5,163 nt of DNA from Burkholderiaceae bacterium (GTDB taxonomy: Bacteria > Pseudomonadota > Gammaproteobacteria > Burkholderiales > Burkholderiaceae): NCBI GenBank assembly GCA_022701965.1, contig JAKONL010000280.1, positions 1 through 5,163 on the forward strand, read 5' to 3'. Below, one piece after another: positions 175-5,163 of this stretch (the first letter of the stretch is position 1; every line of letters starts with the position of its first letter). The notes beneath the pieces are model-generated. The model ran no database searches, was not told where the DNA came from, and saw only the letters and a program-made list of their open reading frames with translations. The position numbers and the translations under genes are program-made.

Positions 175-888
175 CTACGAATACGACGTGATGCGCGAGC
201 CCAGCGTCACGATGCCGCGCGGCGTGCGCAGCGCGGCGACGAGGTCCGGCGCGCCCTGGCGCAGGCCCATCGAATCGAAGCCGATCGCGTCGAGTGCCGT
301 GCGCAGGGTCTCGATGCGCGGATGCGACGCCTCGAGCGACAGCAGCGCGAGCCCGCTGTCGGGCAGGTCGTCGCTCGGATGGCGGGCGCCCCACTGGATC
401 AGCGTGGGCAGCGCGCCGTAGAACAGCCGCTGGCCGTCGTCGCGCACGGCGATGCGCCATTCGAGCCGGCCGCCGCCGGTCGCGGTTGGCAGTTCGCGGG
501 ATGCCTGGACGACCGGACCGCGGTCGATGTGCAGCGGGTCGCCGGCCAGGGCGCGCACGGCGGCCTGCAGGTCGGGCACCGCGGCGACGACATGGATCAG
601 GTGCGGCCCGTGGTGGGCGAGCGAGGCCTGCAGCGTGGCGTCGTCCAGATCGAACCAGCGCCTGAGCGGCGCGGCCCGCGTGGGATGCGCGGCGGGATCG
701 ATCGCGATGATCTCCAGGTAGGCGCGCGGGAAGGCCGGGCTCGCGATCGACAGCAGCCGGTTGTGCGTGCCCATCGACGCGTGCGCGCCGCCGGGCCCGG
801 GGCTCACGCCGAGCGTCGCCTCGCACCACCGCACGCCTTCGTCCAGCGAGCGCGCCGCGACGACGAGATGGTCGAGGCGCGCGTTCAC
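175..888 (-). CDS. VOC family protein, glyoxalase-like (Glyoxalase_3 type)
   Basis: A 237-residue protein with a GTG start (886-888) and TAG stop (175-177). It opens directly with the first beta strand, LDHLVVAARSLDEGV at residues 5-19, which is characteristic of vicinal-oxygen-chelate folds and supports this start. Next come GGAHASMGTHNRLLSI (33-48) and YLEIIAIDP (57-65). H7, H36 and E59 are plausible metal or active-site positions by analogy with the fold. The second half has HLIHVVA (96-102), GRLEWRIAV and LPTLIQWG (160-167), as in glyoxalase-like domains of about 235 residues. These proteins are mostly uncharacterised; known VOC enzymes include lyases, isomerases, dioxygenases and thiol transferases, so I assign no reaction. 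It is the last gene of the operon. Its start overlaps the PhzF stop in a GTGA, with no good Shine-Dalgarno sequence nearby, so translational coupling is likely. Confidence 0.85.
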   Translation of the reverse strand: MNARLDHLVVAARSLDEGVRWCEATLGVSPGPGGAHASMGTHNRLLSIASPAFPRAYLEIIAIDPAAHPTRAAPLRRWFDLDDATLQASLAHHGPHLIHVVAAVPDLQAAVRALAGDPLHIDRGPVVQASRELPTATGGGRLEWRIAVRDDGQRLFYGALPTLIQWGARHPSDDLPDSGLALLSLEASHPRIETLRTALDAIGFDSMGLRQGAPDLVAALRTPRGIVTLGSRITSYS

Positions 889-1820
889 AGCGTCACGCGG
901 CCTTCGATGCAGGTCACGACGTCGCCGCCGACCCAGGTTTGGCCGGTGGCGTCGCGCGCGAGGTGCACGCGCCCGTCGCGGCCGAGGCACTGTCCCTGTC
1001 CCGCGACATAGGACGCGGGCAGGTGGCCGTCCTCGATCAGCCATTGCGCGAGGCTCGCGTTGAGGCTGCCGGTCACCGGGTCTTCCTCGACGCCGATGCA
1101 GGACGCGAAGGCCCGCACCTCCAGTGCCACGGATGTGTCTTCGGACGGCAGCGCCGCCGCGCCCTTCGCACTGCCGGCGAAGGCACGCGCTTCGCGGTTC
1201 GAGCGGCCGATCAACGCGTTCGCGGCCGGCGCGACGGGCATCGCGGCGACGCCGACCTTCTGCCCGAGCGCCTTGAGCGCGCGGTGGTCGGGCGCCAGCG
1301 CCAGCACGGTATCGACATCGTCGAGCAGCAGGCCGAGCCACGACGTGCCGTTGTCCAGCAACTGCGCCGCCACGATCTGGCGCGCCTGCAGCCGGAGCGC
1401 GGCGGCGATCCGTGCCAGCTGGCTCGGGCTCGGCGCGCTGCGCGTCATCGCGGGCGCGGCGAACGCGAGCCGGTCGCCGTCGCGCCGGATCGGCACCAGA
1501 CCGACATTGCACTGCTGCACGACCTGGCCGGGCGCCCGGGGCCGGCCGCCGGCGCGCAGCCACGCATGGCAGCTGCCGAGCGTCGGATGGCCGGCGAAGT
1601 CGAGCTCGCAGCCGGGCGTGAAGATGCGCACGCGGTAGTCGGCGGCCGGATCGGTCGGCGGCAGCAGGAAGGTCGTCTCCGACAGGTGGGTCCATTGCGC
1701 GAAGCGCTGCATCGCGGCGTCGTCGAGCCCCTCGCCGTCGAGCACGACGGCCAGCGGGTTGCCGCGGTACGGATGCGCGGTGAAGACGTCGACCTGCTGG
1801 AAGGGGCGGGACCGGGTCAC
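885..1820 (-). CDS. PhzF family isomerase/epimerase
   Basis: A 311-residue cytosolic protein of the usual PhzF length. In the family, PhzF of phenazine synthesis isomerises trans-2,3-dihydro-3-hydroxyanthranilate, and relatives share the diaminopimelate-epimerase fold. Family motifs appear in order: QVDVFTAHPYRGNPLAVVLDG region (residues 9-29), LSETTFLLPP (46-55) with the likely catalytic E48, FTPGCELDFAGHPTLGSCHA (67-86) with H78, and EEDPVTGSLNASLAQWL (245-261) with D247 and the DPVTGS loop. All expected active-site positions are present, so it looks functional. No phenazine genes are nearby, so the PhzF name marks the family and not the reaction. The start is GTG 1818-1820, since no upstream in-frame ATG is available and AAGGA lies 9 nt before it. 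It follows the GST gene by 16 nt and overlaps the VOC gene by 4 nt. Confidence 0.92.
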   Translation of the reverse strand: MTRSRPFQQVDVFTAHPYRGNPLAVVLDGEGLDDAAMQRFAQWTHLSETTFLLPPTDPAADYRVRIFTPGCELDFAGHPTLGSCHAWLRAGGRPRAPGQVVQQCNVGLVPIRRDGDRLAFAAPAMTRSAPSPSQLARIAAALRLQARQIVAAQLLDNGTSWLGLLLDDVDTVLALAPDHRALKALGQKVGVAAMPVAPAANALIGRSNREARAFAGSAKGAAALPSEDTSVALEVRAFASCIGVEEDPVTGSLNASLAQWLIEDGHLPASYVAGQGQCLGRDGRVHLARDATGQTWVGGDVVTCIEGRVTL

Positions 1821-1840
1821 TGGGGGTGTTCCTTGTTCAT
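1817..1840 (-). other. Possible 7-codon coupling ORF (MNKEHPQ) between the GST and PhzF genes
   Basis: A tiny frame, MNKEHPQ, begins at ATG 1838-1840, which overlaps the GST stop as ATGA. It ends at TGA 1817-1819, which overlaps the PhzF start codon as GTGA. It fills the intercistronic gap exactly, and the PhzF ribosome-binding site (AAGGA) lies inside it. It has no Shine-Dalgarno sequence of its own, so any translation would be by reinitiation after GST termination, handing ribosomes on to PhzF. The peptide itself probably has no function. The arrangement could be chance, since gaps this short often contain small frames. Confidence 0.25.
1830..1834 (-). promoter_or_regulatory. Ribosome-binding site AAGGA for the PhzF gene
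   Basis: AAGGA on the minus strand sits 9 nt before GTG 1818-1820. It fixes this GTG as the PhzF start, because no in-frame ATG exists between it and the GST gene end. Confidence 0.7.
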
Positions 1841-2496
1841 TCGAGGGGGAGGTCGAGCACGCCGCGCGCGGCCTGGCGCGTCCGGAGTTCGGAGAACCAG
1901 CGTTCGACGTTCGGCCATGCCGGGCGCGTGTAGGCGGTCGGCGGCAGGCCGAACCAGCGGTGCGCCTCGCAGCCGAGCGGGATGTCGGCCATGCAGAAGT
2001 GGTCGCCGAGCATGAAGCGCCGCTCCGCCAGGTGCGCGTCGAGCAGCGCGAACAGCGGCTCGGTGGCGAGCACCGAGCGCGCGATGACCGCGTCGTCGCG
2101 TTCGGCCGGCGGCGTGCGGATCCACTGGCGGAAGGCGCCGCCGCTCGCGGGGTTGAGCGTGGTCTGCTGCCAGTCCATCCACTGCTCGGCCTCGAAGCGG
2201 TCCGGCAGCGCGTCGGGATAGAGCGCCTTCGGCCCGGCGGGCGCACCGGGGGAATGACGGGCGCACAGGTAGCGCACGATCACGTTCGATTCCCACAGCG
2301 TGACGCGCGCCGCGTCCTCGCCGTCGTCGATGGCCGGCACCAGGCCGTTCGGATTGAGCGCCAGGAAGTCGGGCGTGCGGACGATGCCGAACCGGCCGCC
2401 GGCCTCGGTGCGCTGGAAGTCGAGCCCGAGCTCCTGCGCGCACCACACCACCTTGCGCACGTTGATCGAGCTGATGCGGCCCCAGATGTTCAGCAT
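1837..2496 (-). CDS. Glutathione S-transferase, GstB-like
   Basis: A 219-residue soluble two-domain GST of normal length. The N-terminal thioredoxin-like domain (about residues 1-80) has LNIWGRISSINVRKVVW at 2-18, with S9/S10 as the candidate catalytic hydroxyl(s). It also has FLALNPNGLVPAI (44-56) with the conserved cis-proline P54, and LWESNVIVRYL (67-77), whose E69-S70 pair binds the glutamyl end of glutathione. The all-helical C-terminal domain contains AEQWMDWQQTTLNPA (103-117) and GDHFCMADIPLG (164-175) with the structural D171. From memory, the WGR-S-NV-KV start, the FGI...DFLA-NPNGLVP segment and LWESN-IVRYL closely match E. coli GstB. GstB-type enzymes act on small electrophiles such as haloacetates, so a detoxification or thiol-conjugation role is likely but the substrate is unknown. 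It starts 12 nt after the aminotransferase stop and ends at TGA 1837-1839. Confidence 0.93.
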   Translation of the reverse strand: MLNIWGRISSINVRKVVWCAQELGLDFQRTEAGGRFGIVRTPDFLALNPNGLVPAIDDGEDAARVTLWESNVIVRYLCARHSPGAPAGPKALYPDALPDRFEAEQWMDWQQTTLNPASGGAFRQWIRTPPAERDDAVIARSVLATEPLFALLDAHLAERRFMLGDHFCMADIPLGCEAHRWFGLPPTAYTRPAWPNVERWFSELRTRQAARGVLDLPLE

Positions 2497-2508: not shown

Positions 2509-3741
2509 TCAGCCAGCGGCGAGTTCGCGCTGCACGCGCGCGGCGGCGTCGTCGGCCAGTTGCTCGCGCAGCGTCGCGGCCAGCGCGGCGACGGCGATGT
2601 CGATCTGCTCGACGCTCGCGGTCACGAACGACAGGCGCAGCGTGCGCGCGTCGCCGGTGCCGTCCGCGTAGAACGGTGCGCCGGGCACGAACGCGACGCC
2701 GCGCGCGATGGCCCTGGGCAGCAGCGCCGTGGTGTCGATGCCGTGGGGCAGACGCAGCCACAGGAACATGCCGCCGACCGGCGTGTCGAATTCCACGTCG
2801 AGGCCTCGCATCTCGCGCCTGAGCGCCGCGATCATGGCGTCGCGCTGGCGCTTGTAGAGCGCGCGGATCTCTGGCACGTGACGCGACAGGAAGCCGTCCT
2901 TCATGACCTCGACCACCATGCGCTGCGTGAAGATGGGCGTGTGCAGATCGTCCGCCTGCTTGGCCTGCAGCAATTTGCCGTAGATGGCCTTCGGCGCGAC
3001 CAGGAAGCCCAGCCGCAGGCCCGGTGCCAGCACCTTCGAGAACGAGCCCAGGTAGATGCAGCCCTCGGGGTTTCGCGCGGTCAGAGGCAGCGGCGGCGCG
3101 GCATCGAACCACAGGTCGCCGTAGGAGTTGTCCTCGACGATCGGCAGGCCCGCCTGCGCGGCGGCGGCGGAGACGGCGGCGCGGCGCGCCTCGCTCATCG
3201 TACGGCCGGTCGGGTTCTGGAAATTGGGCAGCAGGTAGACGAAGCGCGCGGCTTCCTCGGCGCCGTCGCCGCGCGCCTTGGCGACCAGGTCGTCGACGAC
3301 CACGCCGTCGCTGTCGCTGCGCACGCCCACCGGCACCGGCTCCATCGGCGAGAAGGCCTGCAGCGCGCCGAGGTAGGTCGGCATCTCCACCAGCACGCGG
3401 CTGCCGGGGTCGAGCAGCACCTTGGCCACCAGGTCGAGACCCTGCTGGGATCCGGTGGTGATCAGGACCTGCGCCGGGTCGACGTTCCAGGGCAGCATGT
3501 CGGCCACCGCCTGGCGCAGCGGCGCGTAGCCTTCGCTCGCGGCGTACTGCAGCGCGGCCGCGCCGTCGTTGGCCAGCACGTGGGCGCAGGCGTCGGCGAA
3601 GGCCGTGATCGGGAACGTCTTCGGCGACGGCAGGCCGCCGGCCAGGCTGACGATGCCCGGCTGCTCAGCGAGCTTGAGGATCTCGCGCAGTACCGAGGGG
3701 TTCATCTTCGCGGCCCGTGAGGCCATCTTCCAGTTCGTCAT
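2509..3741 (-). CDS. PLP-dependent aminotransferase, class I/II (2-aminoadipate/LysN-like)
   Basis: A 410-residue cytosolic fold-type I aminotransferase. Diagnostic positions in order: VSLAGGLPSP (31-40) lining the substrate pocket; Y66 in LQYAASEGYAPLR, which reaches the neighbouring active site in the dimer; N176 in NFQNPTGR (173-180); D204 and Y207 in VEDNSYGD, which hold the PLP ring; the Schiff-base lysine K236 in GSFSKVLAPGLRLGF (232-246), with phosphate-binding R243; and R369 in TLRLSF, which binds the substrate alpha-carboxylate. The order and spacing fit the LysN / 2-aminoadipate / kynurenine aminotransferase-II group, which accepts many amino acids. The exact donor is not predictable. 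No GntR domain precedes it, so it is a catalytic enzyme and not a MocR regulator. ATG 3739-3741 is chosen because AAGGAG lies 7 nt upstream and the sequence matches from MTNWKMASRA. It follows the exporter gene by 62 nt. Confidence 0.93.
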   Translation of the reverse strand: MTNWKMASRAAKMNPSVLREILKLAEQPGIVSLAGGLPSPKTFPITAFADACAHVLANDGAAALQYAASEGYAPLRQAVADMLPWNVDPAQVLITTGSQQGLDLVAKVLLDPGSRVLVEMPTYLGALQAFSPMEPVPVGVRSDSDGVVVDDLVAKARGDGAEEAARFVYLLPNFQNPTGRTMSEARRAAVSAAAAQAGLPIVEDNSYGDLWFDAAPPLPLTARNPEGCIYLGSFSKVLAPGLRLGFLVAPKAIYGKLLQAKQADDLHTPIFTQRMVVEVMKDGFLSRHVPEIRALYKRQRDAMIAALRREMRGLDVEFDTPVGGMFLWLRLPHGIDTTALLPRAIARGVAFVPGAPFYADGTGDARTLRLSFVTASVEQIDIAVAALAATLREQLADDAAARVQRELAAG

Positions 3742-3803: not shown

Positions 3804-4403
3804 CTACACGCCGACCATCCAGGCGGCCGTCAGCACCAGTATTGCCGCCATCGCGCGGTTGAACCACAGCAGCCTGCGGCCGCGGGAGAGCCAGTCGCGC
3901 AGCAGCGCGCCGACCACCGCGTAGGTGAGATTGCTCGCGAAGCCGAACGCGAGCATCACGGGCGCGACGATCACGAAGCGTCCCGCCGCATCGGGCTGGC
4001 CGGCGATCCATCCGGCCACCACCGTGAGCGCCAGCAGCCAGCCCTTGATGTTGACGAACTGCAGCATCACGCCCTGGCCGAAGCCGACATCGAGCCGCGC
4101 GCCGTCGGCGGTGCCGAGCGTCGCGCTGCGGCCGAGCTTGAAGGCCAGCCACAGGAGATAGCCGATGCCCAGCGCCTTGATCGCCAGGCGCAGCGCCGGC
4201 GCCGCCACCACCAGCGCGCCGAGGCCGGCGGCGCACAGCGCGAGCAGCAGCGTCCAGCCGACCGGCACCGCCAGCACGAAACGCATGGCGCGCGGCAGGC
4301 CGCCGTTGGCCGCGAGGGCGGTGGAGAGCGTGGTGTTGGGCCCGGGAGAAAAACTCATCGCGGTGGCCAGCACCAGCAGCGCGGTGAATTCCTGCCAGTT
4401 CAT
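3804..4403 (-). CDS. LysE/RhtB family amino-acid exporter, EamB-like
   Basis: A 199-residue inner-membrane protein of typical RhtB length. Hydrophobic segments lie near residues 5-30, 41-68, 72-90, 111-134, 143-168 and 181-198, matching the six-segment family plan. The family hallmark SPGPN is at 19-23 at the end of the first segment. The mid-protein motif reads LQFVNIKGWLLAL (114-126) where many RhtB proteins have NPK. From memory, the E. coli O-acetylserine/cysteine exporter EamB (YfiK) has LQFVNVK here, so EamB may be the closest characterised relative. Proton-driven export of an amino acid or derivative is likely; the substrate is not determined. ATG 4401-4403 is preferred because the first membrane segment follows at once. 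An in-frame ATG at 4428-4430 would overlap the candidate -10. No clear Shine-Dalgarno precedes the start. It is the first gene of the operon, divergent from the MocR gene. Confidence 0.92.
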   Translation of the reverse strand: MNWQEFTALLVLATAMSFSPGPNTTLSTALAANGGLPRAMRFVLAVPVGWTLLLALCAAGLGALVVAAPALRLAIKALGIGYLLWLAFKLGRSATLGTADGARLDVGFGQGVMLQFVNIKGWLLALTVVAGWIAGQPDAAGRFVIVAPVMLAFGFASNLTYAVVGALLRDWLSRGRRLLWFNRAMAAILVLTAAWMVGV

Positions 4404-4410
4404 GGCACAC

Positions 4411-4477
4411 GACTGTAGACTTTCGACCATTACAGTGCCGGTACAGTCACCCGAACAAGCGGTGAATCTGTACCGGC
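4411..4477. promoter_or_regulatory. Candidate MocR operator: four TACAG/CTGTA elements including a perfect 10-bp inverted repeat
   Basis: The 110-bp divergent intergenic region holds GACTGTA (4411-4417), TACAGT (4431-4436), TACAGTC (4442-4448) and CTGTAC (4468-4473). GCCGGTACAG (4437-4446) and CTGTACCGGC (4468-4477) are perfect 10-bp reverse complements with centres 31 bp apart. GACTGTA and TACAGTC form a 7-bp inverted pair, also with centres 31 bp apart. TACAGT occurs twice as a direct repeat 11 bp apart. MocR dimers are known to bind paired direct or inverted half-sites in divergent promoters, and this is the only intergenic space shared by the regulator and the operon. Binding by this regulator is inferred from position. 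Confidence 0.55.
4429..4458 (-). promoter_or_regulatory. Possible sigma-70 promoter for the exporter operon
   Basis: On the minus strand TTGTTC (4453-4458) and TGTAAT (4429-4434, five of six matches to the -10 consensus) are separated by 18 bp. Transcription would begin near 4422, giving a leader of about 20 nt. One arm of the 10-bp inverted repeat lies between the -35 and -10, and the other lies just upstream of the -35. A regulator bound there could block or recruit polymerase. The -35 match is moderate, so this is a candidate only. Confidence 0.35.
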
Positions 4478-4513
4478 GACCGCCTCGGCACAGATCGATC
4501 TCCTGGAGCACCG

Positions 4514-5163
4514 ATGCTCACCCGAACCACCACCCAGTCCCTGACCACCCAGCTCGCCGAGCGCTTCGCCGAACGCATCCGCACGCGGCTGCTCGCGCCC
4601 GGCGCCCGGCTTCCCTCGGTGCGCGAGTGCGCGCGCCAGCAGGGCGTGAGCCCGCACACCGTGGTCGCGGCCTACGACCGGCTGCTCGCGCAGGGGCTGG
4701 TCGAGGCGCGGCGCCAGCGCGGCTTCTACGTGCGCGATTCGGCCGCCGCCGCGCACGACGGGCCGGTACCGGATCCGTCCGGTACTTCCGGGACGGCCGT
4801 GCGGTCGGCGTCGACCGCGGTGCCGGCGGTGTCGACGCTGCCGCGCATCCCGGCCGACGCCAGCTCGCTGATCCGCGGCATGTTCCACCGCCAGAGCGAC
4901 AAGCCGCAGCCCGGCATGGGCGTCTTTCCGCCCGACTGGATGGACACCACGTTCATGCCGACCTCGCTGCGGCGCCTGACCGGCACGCGCGCGCTGCAGG
5001 AGCTCTCCCTGCAGTACGGCGAGCCGGCCGGAGATGCCGCGCTGCGGAGCAGCCTCTCGCGCAAGCTGGTCGCGCTGGGCATCCCGGCGGCGCCCGACCG
5101 GATCGTGACCACCATCGGCGCGACGCATGCGCTCGACGTCGTCAGCCGCACGCTGCTGCGCGC
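4514..5163 (+). CDS. MocR family transcriptional regulator, GntR HTH plus aminotransferase-like domain (3' end outside window)
   Basis: 216 codons are visible and the frame is open to the right edge; full MocR proteins are usually 450-500 residues. Residues about 11-75 form a GntR winged helix: LAERFAERIR (14-23), APGARLPSVRECARQQGVSP (28-47) with the recognition helix around HTVVAAYDRLLAQGLV, and the wing ARRQRGFYV (65-73). A low-complexity Ala/Pro/Ser/Thr-rich linker (about 76-112) follows. The aminotransferase-like domain then begins, with FPPDWMD (138-144), LQYGEPAGDAALR (166-178) and TTIGATHALDVV (199-210). The PLP-binding lysine lies beyond the window. MocR proteins bind PLP and sense an amino acid or PLP adduct. 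ATG 4514-4516 is the first in-frame start, since an in-frame TGA lies at 4463-4465; GGAG at 4505-4508 is 5 nt upstream. Divergence from the exporter/aminotransferase operon suggests it controls that operon and itself. Confidence 0.92.
   Translation, partial: MLTRTTTQSLTTQLAERFAERIRTRLLAPGARLPSVRECARQQGVSPHTVVAAYDRLLAQGLVEARRQRGFYVRDSAAAAHDGPVPDPSGTSGTAVRSASTAVPAVSTLPRIPADASSLIRGMFHRQSDKPQPGMGVFPPDWMDTTFMPTSLRRLTGTRALQELSLQYGEPAGDAALRSSLSRKLVALGIPAAPDRIVTTIGATHALDVVSRTLLR

Follow-up and report, generated by a model that had tools for sequence, protein, structure and literature searches.

The subject of this analysis is a 5,163-bp stretch of DNA from a Burkholderiaceae bacterium (assembly GCA_022701965.1, contig JAKONL010000280.1; the whole stretch is referred to as the window), and in particular its 110-bp intergenic region at positions 4404-4513, from which a MocR-type regulator gene and a leftward operon comprising a lysE-type exporter, an aminotransferase, a glutathione S-transferase (GST)-like, a phzF-type and a glyoxalase-type gene diverge. 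Comparison of related loci makes it very likely that this region constitutes a shared operator of the MocR-type regulator and the divergent lysE-aminotransferase-GST-phzF-glyoxalase operon. Four predicted boxes compose the array:

4427-4435, plus strand: operator box 1, CCATTACAG, forward, predicted from the comparison
4438-4446, plus strand: operator box 2, CCGGTACAG, forward, left arm of an inverted repeat
4468-4476, minus strand: operator box 3, CTGTACCGG, inverted, right arm of the inverted repeat
4485-4493, plus strand: operator box 4, TCGGCACAG, forward

The half-site consensus emerging from this comparison is CCRRTACAG, laid out forward, forward, inverted, forward with box centres 11, 30 and 17 bp apart. 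With respect to helical phasing, the centre-to-centre distance of 11 bp corresponds to a whole turn and that of 30 bp nearly so, whereas 17 bp does not, and the distances are constant within the group. Four boxes place the array within the range of two to four repeats with a conserved TGT/TGG that marks operators of the MocR/GabR subfamily.

In the window, GCCGGTACAG from 4437 and CTGTACCGGC from 4468 are exact reverse complements whose arms are separated by 21 nt, while GACTGTA occurs at 4411 and TACAGT at 4431, with a second copy of the latter at 4442. An earlier note on this DNA had described these repeats, and their positions, the exact complementarity of the arms and, for the elements it listed, the orientation order minus, plus, plus, minus are all confirmed. 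For a region of this size the repeats are more than chance would produce: of 5000 dinucleotide shuffles of the 110 bp, 24 contained an exact 10-bp inverted repeat and 0 contained four TACAG/CTGTA copies, and the four copies of TACAG/CTGTA present in the entire 5163-bp window all lie within the intergenic region.

The evidence that carries the interpretation is conservation. A close set of 80 loci (L001-L080), in most of which the first 216 residues of the regulator are 65-80% identical, includes Variovorax, the nearest named relatives of the window, as well as Xenophilus, metagenome-assembled genomes of Rhodoferax and others. Of these, 77 were aligned with the window (L068, L076 and L078, which are devoid of the lysE-start context, were excluded), and distances were parsed in 77 of the 78 aligned rows, namely 76 relatives and the window; L056 remained unparsed, though its boxes are present. 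Constant columns across the 77 aligned loci comprise ACCATTACAGT at 4426-4436, C-R-R-TACAG at 4439-4446, CTGTAYYGG at 4468-4476 and CGACACAG at 4486-4493; the cores are invariant, whereas spacer columns such as 4459-4464 vary freely. Box by box, all 77 loci retain the ACA core of box 1, TACAG in box 2, CTGT in box 3 and ACA in box 4. The distances between boxes 1 and 2 (box 1 sits 11 bp before box 2) and between boxes 3 and 4 are constant in all 77 parsed rows, and the gap between boxes 2 and 3 amounts to 21 bp in 70, 22 bp in 6 and 20 bp in 1 of them. The pattern formed by boxes 2, 3 and 4 was found upstream in 80/80 loci of the close set. The earlier note had named, as its own refutation test, a lack of conservation among relatives that have this pair of genes, and the boxes passed it; the reading of the repeats as an operator that overlaps a promoter and belongs to the neighbouring MocR-type gene is supported by the comparison.

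The note's list of elements is not supported as it stood. The two inverted arms (boxes 2 and 3) and TACAGT at 4431, which overlaps box 1, belong to the conserved array; GACTGTA at 4411-4417 falls on the probable -10 element of the lysE-side promoter, and box 4 had been overlooked, its element CGGCACAG at 4486-4493 being absent from the list. In many relatives box 4 reads (C)CRRTACAG, as boxes 1 and 2 do, and in L127 boxes 1, 2 and 4 each read CCAATACAG exactly, a threefold occurrence that supports box 4 as a true half-site. Two side observations concern the same stretch. CGAACA at 4452-4457, between boxes 2 and 3, keeps its ACA in 75-76 of 77 close loci and weakly in the wider family; it is possibly the -35 element of mocR or a weak extra half-site. 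In L099-L101 and L118-L120 box 4 abuts or overlaps the mocR ATG, where autoregulation may act at the very start of mocR.

Beyond the close relatives, a strict search with the pattern box 2-box 3-box 4, from which box 1 was left out, matched 32 of 299 same-family genomes with a single site each, compared with 1 match for the backward control, and a mocR homologue lies beside the site in 31 of the 32. Box 1 is present in 26/26 far sites, or 26/27 if L112 is counted. The column-conservation set does not contain L081-L088, L112-L116 and L119-L121, and L105 was unmatched by the regular expression. Because the strict DNA pattern presupposes the boxes, a set picked by protein was added: a search with the regulator protein of 399 family genomes yielded 265 matches at E 1e-30 or better, of which 109 (54-82% identity) were chosen by protein score and list order, not by DNA. 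These 109 family-wide loci consist of 29 new loci and 80 taken by hand down the matches listed, some already seen being skipped. A four-box site was found in 109/109, each above the maximum of 400 shuffles (1.2), with a best site score of at least 15.1 throughout; the top off-site score in the 795,473 bases flanking L001-L080 (both strands) was 6.8. Ten of these sites duplicate one used for training; once they are set aside, 99 remain, every one with a score of at least 15.1. All four cores are intact in 106/109 loci: the A-C-A of box 2 and the TGT of box 3 are retained in all 109, each position of the box 1 core in at least 108, and the core of box 4 is broken in 2. Boxes 2 and 3 are separated by 21 bp in 104 loci and by 22 bp in the remaining 5. 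The full 10/10 symmetry of the arms is itself not conserved, as it occurs in 7/109 family-wide and 14/80 close loci.

Among the best MocR homologues from an order-wide sample, all nine of L122-L130 (37-61% identity by tblastn) are accompanied by sites scoring above the shuffled maximum, while the array was not found in any of 20 remoter MocR homologues (L131-L150; 29-37%), none of which exceeded that maximum. The array tracks MocR divergence. Among the remoter homologues, L134, L135 and L142 feature upstream palindromes of the CTGTACCGGTA type, in which two half-sites of the same core stand head to head.

The genes flanking the array in the window are as follows:

4514-5163, plus strand: MocR-type regulator gene, cut by the window end (GntR domain PF00392, E 5e-15)
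3804-4403, minus strand: lysE/RhtB-type exporter, first gene of the divergent operon (PF01810, E 1e-10)
2509-3741, minus strand: class I/II aminotransferase dependent on pyridoxal 5'-phosphate (PLP) (PF00155, E 2e-30)
1837-2496, minus strand: glutathione S-transferase-like gene (PF13409 and other GST families)
885-1823, minus strand: PhzF-family isomerase gene (PF02567, E 4e-57)
175-888, minus strand: Glyoxalase_3-domain gene (PF13468, E 6e-36)

The full-length orthologue of the regulator in L001 (469 aa) combines the GntR domain PF00392 with an aminotransferase domain (PF00155, E 3e-26), an architecture that identifies the regulator as MocR-type and corresponds to the winged helix-turn-helix fused to a class I aminotransferase-like domain of the MocR/GabR subfamily. 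This orthologue remains below the NCBIfam curated cut-offs for PdxR (207.9/320, NF052282), GabR (84.8/600, NF052285) and EhuR (148.1/480, NF052286). Among the 80 close loci, a lysE homologue on the opposite strand and the aminotransferase gene are each present in 77, the GST-like gene in 62 (a count limited by the 5-kb flanks and contig ends), the phzF gene in 59 and the glyoxalase gene in 13. The best NCBIfam matches of the operon aminotransferase (2509-3741) are MocR-type models, PdxR with 236.2 and YczR with 220.5 bits, both below cut-off; by these matches it resembles the aminotransferase domain of the regulator without a DNA-binding domain. Divergent genes were typed in 16 hand-chosen loci, 8 of these in a second typing, with L092 untyped. 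In L083, L089, L098, L103 and L107 (5/5 so typed) the divergent exporter is of the EamA/DMT type instead of the LysE type and the array is kept, and in L093 and L127 more distant LysE-type proteins lie beside it. Since it persists where the divergent gene is EamA-type, the array goes with the regulator and is independent of which exporter lies opposite.

On the lysE side, one further feature matters for the interpretation:

4412-4417, minus strand: TACAGT as read on that strand, probable -10 hexamer of the lysE-side promoter, with the ATG of lysE 8 nt further on

In the 77 parsed loci the place of GACTGTA reads ACTCTA in 57, ACTTTA in 18 and ACTGTA in 2, so that the minus strand of close relatives shows TAGAGT, TAAAGT or TACAGT, conforming to TAnANT 7-8 nt before the ATG in 76/77; its distance to box 1 is 8 in 63 and 9 in 14 loci. 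Family-wide, a TAnnnT hexamer occupies this place in 106/109 loci (none in 3) and is of the TAnANT type in 105/106, with TACATT in 30, TAAAGT in 28, TACAGT in 24, TAGAGT in 19 and others in 5. The element at 4411-4417 is hence best read as the probable -10 of the lysE-side promoter. If this assignment is right, the start point of lysE may lie at or next to the ATG and the message would be nearly leaderless.

Several observations weigh against a shared operator read by the adjacent regulator or restrict what the searches convey. Exact 10-bp inverted repeats are common at the scale of the whole window (2 observed; 0 to 13 in 20 shuffles), for which reason the argument must rest on conservation. 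Many of the loci are closely related, and the counts are therefore not independent events. L113 has no mocR in its 1.8-kb piece, L112 (MocR 38%) possesses boxes 2-4 without box 1, and box 3 is weakened in L125-L130. The strict pattern, having matched 32 of 299 genomes only, misses most true sites and says little on other regulon members, and its relaxed version with two mismatches was unspecific in 8 genomes (backward control 28-47 per genome vs 1-10). As to the promoters, a consensus scan of 4250-4700 gave no sigma-70 site and no terminator either, the -35 on the lysE side is weak, with at least 4/6 matches in 21 of 104 loci compared with a random 11%, and no mocR promoter was found by eye and column conservation. 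In addition, neither of the two sites whose gap is 22 bp was recovered by the relaxed pattern. As a separate observation, boxes 2-4 of L112 adjoin an apparent TonB-dependent receptor gene.

According to the proposed model, the adjacent regulator is the predicted reader of the half-site CCRRTACAG, and the array would combine boxes 1-2-3 (forward, forward, inverted) with boxes 2-3-4 (forward, inverted, forward). By position, boxes 1 and 2 overlap the lysE-side promoter at its spacer and -35 region, and box 4 is located near the mocR start. Most likely, a MocR dimer carrying PLP, and perhaps an amino compound, in its aminotransferase domain would occupy the array, adjust the exporter/aminotransferase operon and limit its own synthesis, sensing its ligand through PLP. 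The poor -35 and the rarity of T at position 3 of the -10 incline us towards activation, and the operon is probably activated by MocR; repression fits the same geometry.

An elaboration of this model, which we regard as unlikely, sees two overlapping operators of three boxes each, with boxes 2 and 3 common to both; the regulator would choose its box pairs according to ligand and so switch between the exporter operon and mocR, and where the -10 has a TACA core, as in roughly half the family, that hexamer may compete with the boxes as an additional, fifth half-site. For the earlier note's idea that the regulator may pair the boxes differently in its apo and ligand-bound forms, PdxR of B. clausii offers a precedent, as described in the MocR survey (PMC5320631).

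Quite improbable is the layout of the earlier note, in which GACTGTA at 4411-4417 counts as one of four TACAG elements (in the order minus, plus, plus, minus) that form two inverted pairs of equal 31-bp spacing. Its arithmetic holds in the window, as the centres of both quoted pairs are 31 bp apart (4441.5 and 4472.5; GACTGTA at 4414 and TACAGTC 4442-4448 at 4445), and family-wide the -10 hexamer has a TACA core, with C at position 3, in 55/106 loci and reads TACAGT in 24, which overlaps to some extent with that layout. Yet in close relatives the place of GACTGTA reads ACTCTA or ACTTTA in 75/77 loci and its distance to box 1 shifts between 8 and 9, while those between boxes 1 and 2 and between boxes 3 and 4 stay fixed. 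Moreover, C at hexamer position 3 is accompanied by T at position 5 (TACATT, 30) more than by G (TACAGT, 24, against 36.8 under independence), whereas T is rare at the corresponding position of the boxes (4-5/109 in boxes 1 and 4). Because the place varies in both sequence and distance and the box intervals are constant in 77/77, the second 31-bp pair is probably a coincidence.

It is very improbable that some other regulator, encoded elsewhere, binds the array and that the MocR gene is a neighbour only. The link between the adjacent MocR and the array does rest on sequence comparison, but the array stays beside mocR homologues while the adjoining exporter changes, and it vanishes as MocR diverges; TGT cores, two to four repeated boxes and a divergent position are, moreover, typical of MocR operators (PMC5320631). 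An RNA element, with the inverted repeat forming a hairpin in the mocR leader, is scarcely credible: the arms are perfect in the window, and arm pairs 1 and 3 co-vary beyond shuffles (only 1 and 9 of 500 shuffles attain the observed mutual information; Watson-Crick in 63 vs 45.7 and 68 vs 58.7 of 109), but such co-variation can arise from relatedness alone, the other variable pairs gain nothing (pairs 0 and 4 with 44 and 53 Watson-Crick vs 48.4 and 53.5 by shuffling), arm identity is 6-8/10 in 76/109 loci, and no hairpin explains why boxes 1 and 4 carry the same half-site in direct orientation.

The preferred reading, a shared operator of the divergent MocR-type regulator, can be placed among systems already described. 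Among the papers listed for MocR with Variovorax, Burkholderiales, PdxQ and LysE, no study of this locus was seen, though the supplements of PMC5320631 may list the regulog. Regulators of the MocR type occur widely in beta-proteobacteria, and most of them have not been studied. Four fixed half-sites that are kept while the exporter is exchanged constitute a clean test system for how direct and inverted boxes are recognised by a head-to-tail MocR dimer, and the array directs the search for a ligand to the regulated exporter and aminotransferase.

In gene content, the operon resembles the PdxQ regulons of PMC5320631, which share a LysE/YggA or DMT exporter, a PLP aminotransferase and PhzF-family (COG384) and GloA-family genes, including the same alternation of LysE and DMT. 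The exporter and the PLP aminotransferase, PhzF and glyoxalase-type genes of PdxQ regulons are all represented in the window, whereas a PLP-metabolic oxidase (pdxO, pdxO2 or pdxH) is absent among its six proteins. GabR of Bacillus subtilis and PdxR of Bacillus clausii, as presented in the same source, are alike in that direct repeats are joined by an inverted box and that a MocR regulator with bound PLP works on a shared divergent promoter; they differ from the present case in that four boxes occur here and in that the regulator orthologue is below the PdxR, GabR and EhuR cut-offs. EnuR of Ruegeria pomeroyi (PMC8739950) is likewise a MocR/GabR-type regulator whose predicted operators overlap promoter core elements, yet it is a repressor acting on inverted repeats with the consensus ATTGTnnnnnnACAAT, and its half-site and layout are unlike those found here.

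MocR operators of two to four boxes were catalogued by Suvorova and Rodionov (2016, PMC5320631). Within Table 2 of that catalogue, forward-forward-inverted and forward-inverted-forward are common three-box layouts, and four-box layouts are rare (16/284 regulogs, summed from the table), their orders including -> <- -> -> (4 regulogs, 19 regulons) and -> -> <- -> (1 regulog, 2 regulons). The array described here resembles these operators in its repeated boxes with TGT cores in a region shared with divergent genes, and its order matches depending on the strand and box convention, the comparison being one of layout. Taken together, the number of boxes, their TGT core and their place in a shared divergent region are already known for MocR operators, and the array represents a well-supported but fairly ordinary kind of switch.
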